DNA of 52,511 nucleotides, taken from assembly GCA_016199085.1 (NCBI GenBank), contig JACQHJ010000008.1:1-52511 (forward strand), given 5' to 3'. The notes beneath the pieces were generated by a model. It did not search any database. It was not told the DNA's origin and saw nothing but the letters and a program-made list of their open reading frames with translations. The DNA comes from Candidatus Levyibacteriota bacterium. GTDB lineage: Bacteria > Patescibacteriota > Microgenomatia > Levybacterales > UBA12049. Both the position numbers and the translations under genes were made by a program. The stretch's first letter is position 1. Each line of letters begins with the position of its first letter. Shown in pieces: positions 29,384 to 50,627 of this stretch.

Positions 29384-29405
29384 CAATAAGATACAGTAAG
29401 ACTAC

Positions 29406-29435
29406 TTGACAAAGTTTCATTTTTTTTCGTATAAA
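29406..29435 (+). promoter_or_regulatory. Promoter of lexA
   Basis: TTGACA (29406-29411), 18 bp, TATAAA (29430-29435). Predicted leader about 25 nt with a weak AGAGAG site before the ATG at 29468. Confidence 0.6.
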
Positions 29436-29467: not shown

Positions 29468-30094
29468 ATGGCCGGAGTATTATATAGAAAAGAAAGAGAA
29501 GTCTTGGAATTTTTAGCCCAGTTTCAAAGACAATACGGGTATTCTCCAACGCTGTCTGAAATAGCACAAGGAACAGGACACAAAAGCAACTCCACTGTGC
29601 ATACTATTATCAAGTCTTTGGTCGATAAGGGTTATGTCCAAAAATCTGATGGAAACACCAGGCTTTTAAAAATTGTGGATGAAAAAGTGCAATTTTCCCT
29701 TCTTGGCAGCAAACCCGCAATAGAACTGCCGCTTTTGGGATACATAGCCGCAGGGCAACCCCTGGAACCATACAGTGACCCGAATGCATCTTTTTTTGTC
29801 TCCGCGTCCCTTTTGTCAGGAAAAAATACAGCCTATGTATTACAGGTAAAGGGCAGGTCAATGATTGAAGACGGAATATTAGACGGAGACTATGTGGTAA
29901 TAGAAAAAGTAACGGAAGCTGCAAACGGAGAAATAGTCGTAGCCATGGTTGATGATAATCTGGCAACTTTAAAAAAGTTCTATAAAGAAGACGGCAGAGT
30001 TATTTTAAAGCCTGCGAATTCGGAAATGGCACCTATTTATCCCACCAAACTTACCATACAGGGAAAAGTGGTGGGACTTGTCAGAAAGTTTTAA
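29468..30094 (+). CDS. lexA: SOS repressor LexA
   Basis: A 208-residue repressor-protease. The N-terminal winged helix (about 1-68) has YGYSPTLSEIAQGTGHKSNSTVH. The self-cleavage site is Ala95-Gly96 in GYIAAGQPLE. The catalytic dyad is Ser131 (KGRSMIEDGI) and Lys169 (LATLKKF). All residues needed for RecA-stimulated autoproteolysis are present. It represses DNA-damage genes; the divergent uvrB is an obvious candidate target. The end is 4 bp from the convergent dedA end. Confidence 0.96.
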   Translation: MAGVLYRKEREVLEFLAQFQRQYGYSPTLSEIAQGTGHKSNSTVHTIIKSLVDKGYVQKSDGNTRLLKIVDEKVQFSLLGSKPAIELPLLGYIAAGQPLEPYSDPNASFFVSASLLSGKNTAYVLQVKGRSMIEDGILDGDYVVIEKVTEAANGEIVVAMVDDNLATLKKFYKEDGRVILKPANSEMAPIYPTKLTIQGKVVGLVRKF

Positions 30095-42810: not shown

Positions 42811-43967
42811 AGTATTTGCAAATCTTTGCAAACATCTGTCTAGTTTTAGCATTATATTATTTAATCTATTACGTTTATCTGGGTATTGTCTCTCCTATTC
42901 CTCAAGCGGGAGACAGTTTTGACTATCATATTCCAATTGCAAAATCTATTTTAGACGGAAGCTTTCTAAGCGGCCTTGGTTTTACCAAATATCAGCATTT
43001 CTATCCTGGCACGAGTGAAATTATTAATTCCTTATTTATTCTTTTAAACATTCCCTTAACCCTTTCAAACATAATACCTTCGGTTTTGCTTGGTATCTCA
43101 TGTTTTATCTTGGGAAGAGTATACAGATTGGATAAGTACTCAGCAATAATCTTTGCATCTTCAATTTTTACCTTAAATGCGATCCTTCGATGGATGAATG
43201 CAGTCAGTGTTGACGCTTGGATAGGAGTATATTTTGTTTTAGCTTTGATTCTTTTAAAAAATCCAAACAAAACCGTTTTGTATTTTTTAAAATTAGGTGT
43301 CGTGTTCGGACTCCTAATAGGAACAAAGTATTCTGCAGTTTTGCTTTCTTTAGTATTACTTGTTTTTTATTTCAAAGATTTAATTAAAGTTTTAAATTTA
43401 AGAAACCTCATCTCCTTTTTGATTCCTTTTAGCGCACTAGGCCTTTTTTGGTATTTTAGAAATTTCTTGATAATGGGAAACCCTTTTTATCCCGTACCAA
43501 TTCTTGGATTTCCCGGAAAAGACGTTTTTAACGGTACTACAATGTTAAAAGCTACAATTAATTATCCAATAGATATGTTTAATGCAGCTTTCTCTGAGTA
43601 TAAATTGTGGTTTTTAACTGTAATTGCTGCTCCAATACTTCTATATAAAAAGAGGGTAGAGGGGGAGATCGGAAAGCTTTTACTTTTGGGAATTGTAAGC
43701 TTTATAATTTTTCTTTTTTTTCCGACAGACAATCATACCTGGGTAATGGTTTCTAGTTTTAGATATTCTTACTTTGTCTTTGTTCCGTTAATCCTTGGTG
43801 TATTTTTATATTTCAATTCTCTTAGAAAAATGAAGTGGCTCTCTTATTTTGCTATTGCCAATATGCTTGGGGTGTCTGTAATAACATACCAGCCGAAGCT
43901 GATATTGATAGTTATACCACTTGCCTTAGCTCTTGCATGGATAAGTTCTTGGCGCACAGGAAGATGA
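42807..43967 (+). CDS. GT-C family membrane protein (second copy type)
   Basis: A 386-residue polytopic membrane protein with about ten hydrophobic segments. GDSFDYHIPIAKSILDG near residues 35-51 carries the acidic first-loop motif (DSFDYH), and KYQHFYPGTSEIINSLF follows, as in GT-C transferases. It resembles the gene at the left edge (FDALWYHLTLPK) but lacks the long C-terminal domain. Role: probable lipid-linked sugar transfer in envelope glycan assembly, inferred. Translationally coupled to obgE (4 bp overlap); its 3' end overlaps the convergent metalloprotease gene by 42 bp. Confidence 0.65.
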   Translation: MKYLQIFANICLVLALYYLIYYVYLGIVSPIPQAGDSFDYHIPIAKSILDGSFLSGLGFTKYQHFYPGTSEIINSLFILLNIPLTLSNIIPSVLLGISCFILGRVYRLDKYSAIIFASSIFTLNAILRWMNAVSVDAWIGVYFVLALILLKNPNKTVLYFLKLGVVFGLLIGTKYSAVLLSLVLLVFYFKDLIKVLNLRNLISFLIPFSALGLFWYFRNFLIMGNPFYPVPILGFPGKDVFNGTTMLKATINYPIDMFNAAFSEYKLWFLTVIAAPILLYKKRVEGEIGKLLLLGIVSFIIFLFFPTDNHTWVMVSSFRYSYFVFVPLILGVFLYFNSLRKMKWLSYFAIANMLGVSVITYQPKLILIVIPLALALAWISSWRTGR

Positions 43968-45011
43968 AGATACCTCTGCAACTATTTTATAGTTATGGAC
44001 ATTAATTGCCAGTAGATACTCTGCTGTGCTTGGAGCAGCTGCCTCAAGTCTTGCAAGAAGAAGTTTTGCCTTCTCTAACTGCACGGGCGTATATGATCTG
44101 TAATCCGAAAAGGGAGTAAGTATGTCTGCGTATATTTCAGCTTTATCCTCATACATTTTAGTAGTACTATATTTGCTGACTACATACCTGTCATACCCTG
44201 GCATTATACTACCGTAAACAAAACCATCCGGATTTAAGTGTCTATATTCAGGATCTCTTTCATATACGAACATTCCGCAATATGACGTATCTACTCCGTG
44301 GCCAAGCTCATGGATTATGACATGAGGCTTACCATTATAAAATGTATGAAGGGGAAGTATCATGGTATCGGGTAAAGCCTCGTAAACACCGGCTGTTCTC
44401 ATTCCATTTGCAAATGGGCTCTCGTCGACAATCTTAACTTTTCTAATTTCTGAAGCCCTAACAATTTCTACGGGAACAAAGTTAAAAGTACTCATAAATA
44501 TTTCTGTTCCCGATTTCAATCTCTCAAAATCCAATGAGTCAAAATCAACAGCTTTATATGGAAGAAATACATCTTTTAATTCCATTCCTGAAGGAACTTC
44601 AACAGAGAAAGAAAAATTGCTGGTAAAAGCATTTAACAGATCCAAAACCTCTCTTGTTGTTGATGCTTGGTAAAGCTGATCAAGGTAAGGTTCAACTTCC
44701 ACTAAAGTTAACCCTAATTCTTTTGCCTTATTTTGAGCGAATTGTTTAAATATTCCATAGTCTGTGCTTGGCACTTGACCCTTCCTGTTGAAAGCAAAGT
44801 CAACAATCCTTGCGGCTTCTGAAGGCACAACAGGACATGCATCTTGCAGAAAATTTTGCGCAAGTCTGGGAAGAAGAAAAGGATCGTTTGCGGAATATTC
44901 ACCCACACCAGCTGTTGATGCAATAGAAAGAGCAACGGCAGCAGACACAAAAGGCCGCATATTTCTACGCCTTACAAAATGTGGACCATTATCACGCTCT
45001 CTGTTAAACAT
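43926..45011 (-). CDS. Secreted or anchored putative zinc metalloprotease
   Basis: 361 residues. A basic start (MFNRERDNGPHFVRRRNMR) and a hydrophobic segment (about 19-36) suggest a signal or anchor. The zinc motif is HVIIHELGHGVDTSYC (HELGH at about 234) and the third ligand is probably Glu in YEDKAEIYADIL (about 293), a gluzincin-like arrangement. Six cysteines occur outside the cytoplasmic part. No exact family assigned. The promoter at 45020-45048 (TTGATA-17-TGaTATAAT) ends 8 nt before the ATG. The C-terminus overlaps the convergent GT-C gene by 42 bp. Confidence 0.7.
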   Translation of the reverse strand: MFNRERDNGPHFVRRRNMRPFVSAAVALSIASTAGVGEYSANDPFLLPRLAQNFLQDACPVVPSEAARIVDFAFNRKGQVPSTDYGIFKQFAQNKAKELGLTLVEVEPYLDQLYQASTTREVLDLLNAFTSNFSFSVEVPSGMELKDVFLPYKAVDFDSLDFERLKSGTEIFMSTFNFVPVEIVRASEIRKVKIVDESPFANGMRTAGVYEALPDTMILPLHTFYNGKPHVIIHELGHGVDTSYCGMFVYERDPEYRHLNPDGFVYGSIMPGYDRYVVSKYSTTKMYEDKAEIYADILTPFSDYRSYTPVQLEKAKLLLARLEAAAPSTAEYLLAINVHNYKIVAEVSSSSCAPRTYPCKS

Positions 45012-45048: not shown

Positions 45049-45073
45049 ACTATAGGTTAGACAAGGAAACCGC

Positions 45074-45097
45074 AAAAAAACCCCTTGCGGGGCTTTT
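45074..45097 (-). terminator. Rho-independent terminator of the candidate small RNA
   Basis: The minus strand reads AAAAAGCCCC-GCAA-GGGG followed by TTTTTTT: a GC stem with a GCAA tetraloop and a U tract. The A-rich 5' side could make it work on both strands. It is the only classical terminator I see in the window. Confidence 0.8.
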
Positions 45098-45151
45098 TCG
45101 GGGTAATCTATTGCTAGATCTCCTGCCTTTAATACTTTCGTATTAGAGGTA
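45074..45151 (-). ncRNA. Candidate small structured RNA (about 78 nt)
   Basis: Minus strand, between a consensus promoter (45158-45186) and a terminator. Three successive hairpins, each closed by a GNRA tetraloop: (1) CCTcTAATAC-GAAA-GTATTAaAGG, a ten-position stem with one mismatch; (2) ATCTA-GCAA-TAGAT; (3) the terminator CCCC-GCAA-GGGG. No start codon with an RBS is visible. The next gene downstream has its own promoter, so this is more likely a free RNA than a leader. I cannot match it to tmRNA, 6S, RNase P, SRP RNA or a known riboswitch. Confidence 0.6.
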
Positions 45152-45157
45152 AAAAGC

Positions 45158-45186
45158 ATTTTATACTCCTAATCATACTTTGTCAA
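45158..45186 (-). promoter_or_regulatory. Promoter of the candidate small RNA
   Basis: Minus strand: TTGACA (45181-45186), 17 bp, TAAAAT (45158-45163). Predicted start at about 45150-45151. A consensus -35 and ideal spacing. Confidence 0.7.
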
Positions 45187-45213
45187 TAGGCAAAATATAA
45201 AACACAAATTAAG

Positions 45214-45471
45214 TTACTGGCGTGCTTGAAGTTTTGATTTCACCTCTTGGTTAAATGAACTGTACCATCCTTCAAAGTCCGCTTGTTTTCTTTCAATGTT
45301 TGAGAATTTACTTTTATAGATAGATTGGTTTTTGGAAATAATTTGATTAAATTCATTAAAATTATTCTCGATGTTGCTTAGTTTTGTCGAAAGAACAACA
45401 AAAAGAATTGCTATTGCTGCAAATGAGAGTATTGAAATGTAAAACCCGATAATTCCTAACTTTGACTCCAT
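45214..45471 (-). CDS. Small membrane protein with coiled coil
   Basis: 85 residues: one N-terminal membrane helix (about 7-28, rich in I, F, A) followed by a polar helical region with heptad-like spacing (LSNIENNFNEFNQIISKNQ and onward). Family not recognised. An AAAGGAG site precedes the ATG. It lies 11 bp downstream of another 85-codon gene on the same strand, so it is probably the second gene of an operon. Confidence 0.6.
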   Translation of the reverse strand: MESKLGIIGFYISILSFAAIAILFVVLSTKLSNIENNFNEFNQIISKNQSIYKSKFSNIERKQADFEGWYSSFNQEVKSKLQARQ

Positions 45472-45482
45472 AATACTCCTTT

Positions 45483-45740
45483 CTAAGCAGTCCTCATTCT
45501 TGGTGAGGATACAATGAGAGGTCTAACAAGTGTTCCTCCGCCGATTGGAACTAACCTTCTTGGTATAGTCGTCGCTACGTATACCACAGGATTTCCTTCT
45601 TGGGGTGTCGATCTTTTGTGAACAACCGTTGCTTCTACTCTTGCTCTTTTTTCATTTGGTCCTTGAAAGTATATGACAACATCTGTTCCCAGGCTTACTG
45701 TTCTTACTTTTTTAAATTCTCCCTGTCTTCTTTCCGGCAT
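45483..45740 (-). CDS. Hypothetical ORFan, arginine-rich
   Basis: 85 residues, probably a small beta-rich protein (VRTVSLGTDVVIYFQG, ARVEATVVHKRS, VVYVATTIPRR). No family recognised. The promoter at 45749-45777 (TTGACA-17-TGaTAATAT) ends 8 nt before the ATG and strongly supports the gene. Arg exceeds Lys about threefold. Confidence 0.6.
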   Translation of the reverse strand: MPERRQGEFKKVRTVSLGTDVVIYFQGPNEKRARVEATVVHKRSTPQEGNPVVYVATTIPRRLVPIGGGTLVRPLIVSSPRMRTA

Positions 45741-48226: not shown

Positions 48227-48294
48227 GAGCACCCCAAATGTTTCAGAATTGGAACGAGATACGAGTTTCGCTGGAGAAATGGAAAGAACTTTAA
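48227..48294 (+). repeat. Dispersed repeat copy R2 / micropeptide frame
   Basis: GAGCACCCCAAATG then TTTCAGAATTGGAACGAGATACG. The ATG at 48238 gives an 18-residue frame, MFQNWNEIRVSLEKWKEL, ending at 48294. It aligns in frame with R3 and R4, with several synonymous differences. It lies upstream of the promoter of the first PurM-like gene. Confidence 0.7.
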
Positions 48295-48314
48295 ATCCCA
48301 ATCCGCAGCAACTT

Positions 48315-48343
48315 TTGACTTTAACTAAATTAGATATTAGAAT
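48315..48343 (+). promoter_or_regulatory. Promoter of the first PurM-like gene
   Basis: TTGACT (48315-48320), 17 bp, TAGAAT (48338-48343), 13 nt to the ATG at 48357. The predicted leader is about 7 nt, which supports the internal ATG over 48249. Confidence 0.65.
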
Positions 48344-48356
48344 CATTTATATCTTC

Positions 48357-49367
48357 ATGTCTATCACTTACCAAAAATCGGGAGTAAATTATAACCTCAT
48401 GGATCAGTTTAAAAACGCCTGTATAAAAGCTGGAAATAATTCTCCTCAATTAATAGAAATTCATGATTATTATCTAATTGATGTTCTTGAAGGACTGGGT
48501 AGTTTAGGCAAATTAGCTGATGATATTTATAAGCTAACTGGCAAGGACTACTATTATGAGGTGGGTTGGGGAAATGCAGCAACCGTAATAAACGATCTAA
48601 TATCCATAGGAGCTACTCCTTTAACATTAAAGCTATTCGTTGCAGCAGGAAATGAAAAATGGTTTGGAGATAAAAAGAGATGGAAGAATTTAGTTAAAGG
48701 CTTTAAGGATGCCGCAAACTACTCAAAAGCATTATGGAATGGCGGCGAAACCCAAACATTAGTAAAAGTTGTCTCTCCAGATTCTATCGTCTTAGCAGGG
48801 TCAGCTACTGGTATTGTAAAACCAAAGAGTTGGTTAATAGACGAAAACAATATTAGGGAAAACGACGATATCATATTTTTCAAAAGCTCTGGCATTCACA
48901 CAAACGGCGTCACCTTGATAAGAAAGCTATTTCAAAACAACGGAAAAACCCTAATAAAAGTAATTGAGCAGAAGACTATAATTTATAGCCCAATAATACT
49001 TAAGATTTTAAAAAATAATATAAAAATTCATTTCGCAACCCACATTACAGGTCATGGGTGGCGTAAGATTATGCGGCCTAAAAAGAATTTTGTTTACAGA
49101 ATAGATGAGATACCAACTCCTCCAGAAATTTTTAAAATTATTCAAACCAAAGCAAGTTTATCCGATTTACAAATGTATTCAGATTTTAATATGGGCGTAG
49201 GATATGCAATATTTGTTTCCCAAAAAGATACAAAGAAAGTATTAGAAATTGCAAGAAACTTGAAATTTAATGCATTTGCTGCTGGAAAAGTTGAATCAGG
49301 AGAAAGAAAAGTAATTATAGAACCATTGAATATTACCCTAGAAGGTAAATCTTTAAAAATAAGATAG
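48357..49367 (+). CDS. PurM-like (AIR synthase-related) protein 1
   Basis: 336 residues from the ATG at 48357. The open frame to 48249 crosses repeat R2 and the promoter, so it is not used. YQKSGVNYNLMDQFK (PurM N-terminal ATP-site segment), VINDLISIGATPL, GGETQTL, SSGIHTNGVTLIRKL and the C-terminal GHGWRKIMRP with YSDFNMGVGYAIFV follow PurM (phosphoribosylformylglycinamidine cyclo-ligase) in order. True PurM activity is uncertain. By eye it has about 38 Lys and 9 Arg, unlike its tandem paralog. Flanked by R2 and R3. Confidence 0.8.
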   Translation: MSITYQKSGVNYNLMDQFKNACIKAGNNSPQLIEIHDYYLIDVLEGLGSLGKLADDIYKLTGKDYYYEVGWGNAATVINDLISIGATPLTLKLFVAAGNEKWFGDKKRWKNLVKGFKDAANYSKALWNGGETQTLVKVVSPDSIVLAGSATGIVKPKSWLIDENNIRENDDIIFFKSSGIHTNGVTLIRKLFQNNGKTLIKVIEQKTIIYSPIILKILKNNIKIHFATHITGHGWRKIMRPKKNFVYRIDEIPTPPEIFKIIQTKASLSDLQMYSDFNMGVGYAIFVSQKDTKKVLEIARNLKFNAFAAGKVESGERKVIIEPLNITLEGKSLKIR

Positions 49368-49511: not shown

Positions 49512-50627
49512 ATGACAAACGAAAACCGATCAATTACTTATGCATCTACAGGAGTTAATTACGATGCCATGGATCCTATTAAAAGATTTGCTCAAATGGC
49601 GGCAAGAACCACTTCAGGAAACTTACGAGATTTAGGTTTTCAAGAACTTGAAGCAAGTAGAGGAGAGTCAGCCCATGTTATTGATGTTGGTCCATTTTAT
49701 CTTGCAACAGTAATGGAGGGATTAGGAACGAAAAATCTTGTTGCTGACGCAGTAAGAAGCGATAAAGAGCCATCCTTTTATAACAAAATAGCACAGGATA
49801 CTGTAGCGATGATAGTTAATGATTTAGTTGTCGTTGGTGCTAGACCAATGGTAGTAAGTGCATACTGGACTGCGGGAAGCGGAGACTGGTTTGAAGATGA
49901 AACAAGATCCAGGGAATTAGCAGAAGGATGGGCTAATGCTTGCAATAAGGCTGAAGCAATCTATGGAGGGGGTGAAACACCCACCCTTAAAGACATTATT
50001 AACCCTGGGACAGTAGATTTAGCTGGATCTGCAGTAGGGATCATTCAACCTAAGAGTAGACTTACATTAGGAGATAGAATTGCAGAAGGCGATAGGATTA
50101 TTTTAGCTCCGAGCTCAGGGATTCATGCTAATGGACTTACCTTAGCAAGAAGAATTGCTTTAGAAATTGCTGATGGATATAACACCAGATTATCTGATGG
50201 TAGAACCTATGGAGAAACCCTACTACAACCAACTCCAATATACGCCAAATTAGTACGAGAGCTTTTTGATGCAGGAGTTGACATTCATTATATGGTTAAT
50301 GTGACTGGACATGGCTGGAGGAAATTAATGAGAGCTACAAAAGATTACAAATATGTCATTGATGCTATACCTCAAGTACAACCAGAGTTTGATTTTATTA
50401 AGGGACATTCAGGCAATACCCTAGAGGAAATGTATGGAAATTTTAATATGGGCGCAGGATTTGCCTTTTTTGTTCCCGAACATGCAATGGAAAGAACTTT
50501 AGCTATAGCAAAAACCAGAGCATGTATTAATTTATTAAATGCAGGGGTCATTGAACCTGGACCGAAAGAAGTTGTAATAAATCCTGTTGGAGTAAGTTTT
50601 AAAGGAGAATCATTAAGTGTAAGATAA
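49512..50627 (+). CDS. PurM-like (AIR synthase-related) protein 2
   Basis: 371 residues, paralogous to the preceding gene over the whole length: ASTGVNYDAMDPIKRF, MEGLGTKNLVADA, MIVNDLVVVGARPM, GGGETPTL, SSGIHANGLTLARRI, TGHGWRKLMRATKDY and GNFNMGAGFAFFV. These are the PurM ATP- and substrate-binding segments. It resembles PurM more closely than the first copy does (GLGTKNL matches PurM GVGTK). By eye 15 Lys and 22 Arg. No other purine-biosynthesis gene is in the window, so the pathway role is open. Flanked by R3 and R4. Confidence 0.82.
   Translation: MTNENRSITYASTGVNYDAMDPIKRFAQMAARTTSGNLRDLGFQELEASRGESAHVIDVGPFYLATVMEGLGTKNLVADAVRSDKEPSFYNKIAQDTVAMIVNDLVVVGARPMVVSAYWTAGSGDWFEDETRSRELAEGWANACNKAEAIYGGGETPTLKDIINPGTVDLAGSAVGIIQPKSRLTLGDRIAEGDRIILAPSSGIHANGLTLARRIALEIADGYNTRLSDGRTYGETLLQPTPIYAKLVRELFDAGVDIHYMVNVTGHGWRKLMRATKDYKYVIDAIPQVQPEFDFIKGHSGNTLEEMYGNFNMGAGFAFFVPEHAMERTLAIAKTRACINLLNAGVIEPGPKEVVINPVGVSFKGESLSVR

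Follow-up and report, generated by a model that had tools for sequence, protein, structure and literature searches.

IstR-2 and the SOS type I toxin-antitoxin RNAs of E. coli are non-coding RNAs linked to the SOS response, and CsrB/CsrC and 6S are compact, hairpin-rich sRNAs that bind proteins, those of the CsrB type through GGA loops. The SOS type I toxin-antitoxin RNAs act in cis (PMC10907235). In Klebsiella, DinR is a LexA-controlled sRNA processed from the 3' UTR of the dinI mRNA; it needs Hfq and pairs with the ftsZ mRNA, and the study describing it mentions no further trans-acting sRNA under direct LexA regulation (PMC10907235). LexA proteins with direct-repeat sites are also known, and a Patescibacteria study is cited among them (PMC7739468). 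It is rare in any bacterium for a stand-alone sRNA to be controlled by LexA directly, and our literature searches returned no description of a regulatory RNA from the Candidate Phyla Radiation. In this work, we analyzed a locus within a stretch of 52,511 nucleotides (hereafter, the window) of a genome of 0.94 Mb in 10 contigs. The results give good support to a conserved, stand-alone sRNA of three hairpins that ends in a terminator, its transcript being predicted from the DNA. Furthermore, we consider it fairly likely that this is a regulatory RNA with a compact, protein-binding fold, which LexA would repress through the lexA-type array carried by its relatives.

The feature reads along the minus strand, from 45186 to 45074, a strand that the first-pass annotation had not named, and all the elements that this annotation had described were recovered there (Table 1): the TTGACA-17-TAAAAT promoter, a transcript of about 78 nt, three hairpins with the loops GAAA, GCAA and GCAA, which the minimum-energy fold reproduced, a first stem of ten positions, in which the fold shows one C.A mismatch, and a GC-rich, U-tailed terminator, which is hairpin 3 with its 12 pairs. 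The promoter agrees with the consensus at 11 of 12 positions and is joint best among 19 sites in 3.5 kb. The fold, at -29.0 kcal/mol, has a z value of -5.10 relative to dinucleotide shuffles, none of which was as stable (0 of 200). An RNA of the plus strand was rejected: its fold is stable too (z -3.9), but no promoter-like site precedes it closely on that strand, and weak opposite-strand matches of the covariance model were discarded as mirror images. The terminator DNA (45070-45100) is itself a dyad usable both ways, reading CCGCAAAAAAACCCCUUGCGG and then GGCUUUUU on the plus strand, where the GCGG/CCGCAA pair resembles a terminator of the opposite orientation; GCGG past the U tract is kept in most relatives, and in many of them a convergent gene lies there.

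Table 1. Features of the sRNA locus and of lexA in the window
Feature	Position	Strand	Remarks
Site of the relatives' lexA-type array, degenerate here (TTTGTGTTTTATATTTTGCCTA)	45187..45226	-	-5.2 bits
-35 box TTGACA	45181..45186	-	kept in nearly all homologs
-10 box TAAAAT	45158..45163	-	kept as TAtAAT in homologs
Small RNA	45074..45151	-	5' end ~45151 predicted from the promoter, 7 nt past the -10 box
Hairpin 1, CCUCUAAUAC-GAAA-GUAUUAAAGG, loop 45139-45136	45126..45149	-	fold and stem covariation
Hairpin 2, GG-A-GAUCUA-GCAA-UAGAUU-A-CC, loop 45114-45111	45102..45123	-	fold and stem covariation
Hairpin 3 (intrinsic terminator), GAAAAAGCCCC-GCAA-GGGGUUUUUUU, loop 45088-45085	45074..45099	-	fold and covariation
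Conserved GCGG past the U tract, dyad with CCGCAA	45070..45073	-	putative function
lexA promoter region, drifted operator AAGATACAGTAAGACTACTTGACA	29388..29411	+	5.1 bits
lexA, 208 aa, LexA_DNA_bind and Peptidase_S24	29468..30094	+	candidate regulator, 15 kb distant on this contig

The pairing itself has been conserved among homologs. Stems were cut outward, without gaps, from the three loops of each homolog and only then aligned, which avoids fitting the alignment to the structure. In the resulting set of 25 distinct sequences, 97.2% of the stem cells were paired, compared with 74.9% in shuffles, a figure that leans somewhat towards structure because the loops were placed from single-sequence folds, and against this the slid and shuffled controls guard. 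Doubly changed cells numbered 80 versus 22 in shuffles (0 of 500 shuffles reached the observed value), the covariation score was 0.62 versus 0.19, and pairing fell to 28-50% once partners were shifted by 1-3 columns. Every pair of hairpins 1 and 2 varies, and 14 of the 17 pairs show changes on both sides. Loss of the stems in relatives, which had been set beforehand as refuting evidence, was thus not seen: relatives retain them, and compensatory changes are plentiful. Over 29 copies, the loop of hairpin 1 is GCAA, GAAA or GUAA in 28, that of hairpin 2 is GNAA in 27 and that of hairpin 3 is GCAA or GUAA in all, and the exceptions (UUUA, UUUU, UCCG) indicate that a GNRA loop is favored rather than obligatory. 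The ATG at 45159, which follows AGGAG and opens 51 codons, could be taken for the start of a small, conserved protein-coding gene across the hairpins; the probability of such a gene is negligible, since this ATG overlaps the -10 box, the hairpin spacing varies regardless of codons, the frame is missing from many homologs, and what is conserved is pairing, not codons. This ORF was ruled out as coding, in agreement with the initial statement that no credible ORF is present. Furthermore, loop-to-loop distances occupy all three frames and ATG-started frames differ between copies, which argues that the sRNA is not coding.

The surroundings of the sRNA bear on whether it is the leader of another gene. 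The next gene in the window (43926-45011, minus strand) had been credited with a promoter of its own, and a promoter-like TTGATA-17-TATAAT does lie at 45048-45020, about 25 bp past the terminator; as its -10 sits 8 bp ahead of the ATG, the transcript would be nearly leaderless. The 361-aa product looks secreted, contains HELGH (a zinc-metallopeptidase signature) and has no Pfam match. Upstream of the sRNA, 45214-45471 and 45483-45740 (minus strand) encode two 85-aa proteins, also without a Pfam match. Two genes that lie side by side, 48249-49367 and 49512-50627 (plus strand), encode AIR-synthase-like proteins (PurM family) of 372 and 371 aa and seem to be a tandem pair. Judging from genes named informally from translated sequences, the sRNA of same-family relatives often adjoins obg, frequently in convergent orientation, and that of other lineages lies near mraZ/rsmH, recO or glycosyltransferases, while promoter and terminator accompany it across relatives. 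This varied context of an RNA with its own promoter and terminator speaks for excluding a leader role and supports the stand-alone RNA that had been preferred from the start. The sRNA does stand upstream of a same-strand gene and end in a terminator, as would be expected if it served that gene as a leader or attenuator, but the chance of this is very slight given that the downstream genes of relatives are unrelated or convergent, that the next gene has the promoter-like site mentioned above and that Rfam gave no leader match.

With regard to known classes, the Rfam 15 search of the window region and of the sRNA in 20 homologous loci returned nothing at the gathering threshold; the RNA therefore still matches no known class, as first noted, and the known leader whose appearance had been set beforehand as refuting evidence was not among the results at that threshold. 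Relaxed E-values produced sub-threshold matches only, the best being RF00506 Thr_leader at 24.7 versus 55 bits, mainly from the terminator. Thr_leader and the window sRNA have in common hairpins followed by a GC-rich terminator, whereas neither a leader peptide nor a threonine operon is found at the sRNA. A TPP riboswitch (63.8 bits) was observed near the sRNA in genome G050 (L046, 1329-1440, minus strand).

A pattern joining the hairpin-2 loop and the terminator matched six named genomes, five of Candidatus Levybacteria and one of a Patescibacteria group bacterium, and these matches place the family within the class Microgenomates/Microgenomatia (Candidate Phyla Radiation). Homologs were found by DNA search in 19 of 100 relatives. 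The covariance model detected the sRNA in 28 of the 82 genomes from the order and in 49 of the 374 from the class, counts that are approximate near the threshold, as matches below about 28 bits, inspected individually, were mostly false and a few from the class-wide search with somewhat higher scores were doubtful. Matches L060-L063 (below about 28 bits) and, from the class-wide search, L135, L145 and L123 were rejected as false, the promoter or such hairpins being missing. Beyond the class there was nearly nothing (one 39-bit match among the other classes sampled), and a sequence-pattern search of viral contigs gave no match. The window RNA belongs to a Microgenomatia RNA family that had no earlier description. 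As only about one third of the order's genomes hold a detectable copy, either the RNA is not essential group-wide or the model misses copies. Some genomes (G021, G053) carry at least two; in G021 two divergent copies lie about 860 bp apart (L032, C7 153733-154679). About 180 bp downstream of the sRNA of L009 / L028 (G030:C24 ~60677-60760), a second hairpin-rich stretch ends with an identical CCCCGCAAGGGGTTTTTTTGCGG terminator and is perhaps a second RNA. Six loci (L121, L125, L146, L118, L056, L057) form a second, nearly invariant three-hairpin subfamily (AAAUAGCUCUAUGGCGCAAGC...), found across several genera and without the lexA-type array.

When promoters were aligned on the -35 box, most close relatives showed two to three direct repeats TTGAYATNTT, 10 bp apart, upstream of the box and ending on it. 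TTG occurs at -29 and at -19 (within one position) in 20 of 26 sRNA promoters each; among 15 other promoters, selected because they share the -35 context, it does so in 2 and 1, respectively. The repeats had first been read as an OmpR/PhoB-type operator, a reading dropped since lexA promoters carry the same array. Across 137 genomes of the class, the array pattern matched four lexA and two nrdR genes (named from translated sequence), the remaining matches being GNRA-hairpin RNAs and some sites with no evident gene. Upstream regions of lexA gathered from 20 relatives share the architecture of the sRNA array, for example TTGATTCACT TTGAATATTT TTGTCATCTTGACA in G010. On a weight matrix made from lexA regions only, using 22 columns upstream of -35 and leaving out the -35 box, sRNA promoters averaged 6.3 bits and 453 other TTGAC sites -7.2 bits. 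Scores of at least 7 bits were reached by 16 of 26 sRNA promoters versus one of the 453 background sites (Mann-Whitney for sRNA versus background, p = 1.4e-13, which overstates the difference as homologs are not independent). Copies L056, L057 and L110 are without the array. The array also occurs upstream of recA in five genomes (p 0.001-0.025 each), not in most others, which suggests that the regulon is probably small and variable.

These repeats could alternatively be a strong-promoter element (phased T-tracts, UP-like) of a constitutive, highly expressed sRNA, common to lexA by chance. The -35 context CCTATTGACA is found at tRNA, tuf and membrane-protein promoters as well, T-rich blocks recur every 10 bp, and the window copy has a near-consensus promoter without the array. 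However, the rarity of TTG at -29/-19 in other promoters of the same context, the G and C positions that the repeats contain beyond their T-tracts, and the presence of lexA and nrdR among the identifiable non-sRNA matches of the pattern make this explanation quite unlikely. The sRNA is, on the strength of its promoters, probably SOS-linked, and the shared lexA-type array points to an RNA arm within the SOS response. Under the SOS reading, LexA would bind the array abutting the -35 box and repress the sRNA, as the shared promoter architecture suggests, and upon DNA damage RecA would trigger the self-cleavage of LexA, whereupon the sRNA would be made. Another factor acting on lexA and the sRNA alike would be expected to leave the same promoter picture.

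The genome of the window contains recA, with no site in its upstream region on the lexA-type array search, and a LexA whose peptidase domain is complete. In the promoter region of lexA itself, AAG replaces TTG twice in the operator. In the window copy of the sRNA (L038), no operator is detectable on the lexA-trained matrix; to judge by its sequence, the operator of this copy is decayed. With the array decayed and the lexA promoter drifted, SOS control is a statement about the family, and for the window copy itself we regard it as somewhat doubtful.

The array reappears in a second lineage, family f5, whose class-wide matches include RNAs of 57-121 nt with one to three hairpins, mostly GNAA-capped, followed by a GNAA-capped terminator; several of them form a three-way junction closed by ACCUGU/ACAGGU, starting at the predicted start site. 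Seven f5 hairpin-array RNAs carry a lexA-type array at 10-15 bits, while the three-hairpin paralogs have negative scores even within one genome (in G183, 10.5 bits for L136 versus -7.5 bits for L124). In two families distant from each other, the array thus singles out one kind of RNA gene. The hairpin arrays of f5 are either true homologs of the window RNA or similar to it only in build. In six f5 RNAs (L129, L134, L136-L138, L153), a conserved linker that stays unpaired (UUCUCUAAG/UUCUCGAAG) stands just ahead of the terminator, and it is a possible base-pairing seed.

Concerning its mode of action, the sRNA may act through a compact fold, by binding or titrating a protein, and not in the manner of an Hfq-type antisense RNA. 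Four observations favor this: (i) most of the conserved sequence is located in paired stems and tetraloops, (ii) relatives differ in how many GNAA hairpins they have, (iii) nearly all of the genomes searched yielded neither Hfq nor CsrA (Hfq in 0 of 40, the window genome included; CsrA in 1 of 40, the window genome being without it), and (iv) the subfamily of the window has no conserved unpaired stretch that could serve as a seed. Protein binding is, in our estimation, just on the probable side, and a trans-acting sRNA that pairs with mRNAs, as Klebsiella DinR does with ftsZ, here through short linkers or its 5' end and without Hfq, rather unlikely. Base pairing has a precedent in the LexA-controlled sRNA (PMC10907235) and could draw on the conserved f5 linker; against it stand a 5' tail that is variable, conserved unpaired stretches of no more than a few bases in the subfamily of the window, and the lack of Hfq in all 40 genomes searched. 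As for which protein is bound, the GGCAGGA that most members of the window's subfamily have ahead of hairpin 2 recalls a CsrA sponge acting through the conserved CAGGA between hairpins 1 and 2. This motif is situated outside the hairpin loops and is missing from other subfamilies, and with CsrA in a single one of the 40 relatives and not found in the window genome the sponge is largely refuted and hardly credible. The frame G067:C30 15609-15923 encodes two CsrA-like domains in 128 aa, in a genome group otherwise without CsrA. Returning to the protein-binding fold, it can be extended, tentatively and with considerable reserve, to a class-wide, fast-evolving family of SOS-controlled RNAs with a variable number of GNAA hairpins, acting via a protein partner in hosts seemingly without Hfq and CsrA.

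If true, this would be a structural-RNA arm of the DNA-damage response in bacteria that seemingly have neither Hfq nor CsrA, and the family offers an RNA backed by covariance, a candidate regulator that has a name, and promoter sites open to tests with purified LexA that need no culture of the organism. In comparison with known systems, the family resembles CsrB/CsrC and 6S in being compact and hairpin-rich, with similar hairpins repeated in some relatives. It differs from CsrB/CsrC in that the loops are GNAA rather than GGA and the window genome has no CsrA, and from 6S in being far too short and of another shape. With the IstR-2-type RNAs it would share the nature of an SOS-linked non-coding RNA, whereas no conserved toxin gene or antisense partner adjoins it. 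Unlike DinR, the window sRNA is driven by a promoter of its own and consists almost wholly of hairpins, and Hfq was not found in its relatives; what the two would have in common is being a small RNA tied to the LexA regulon.
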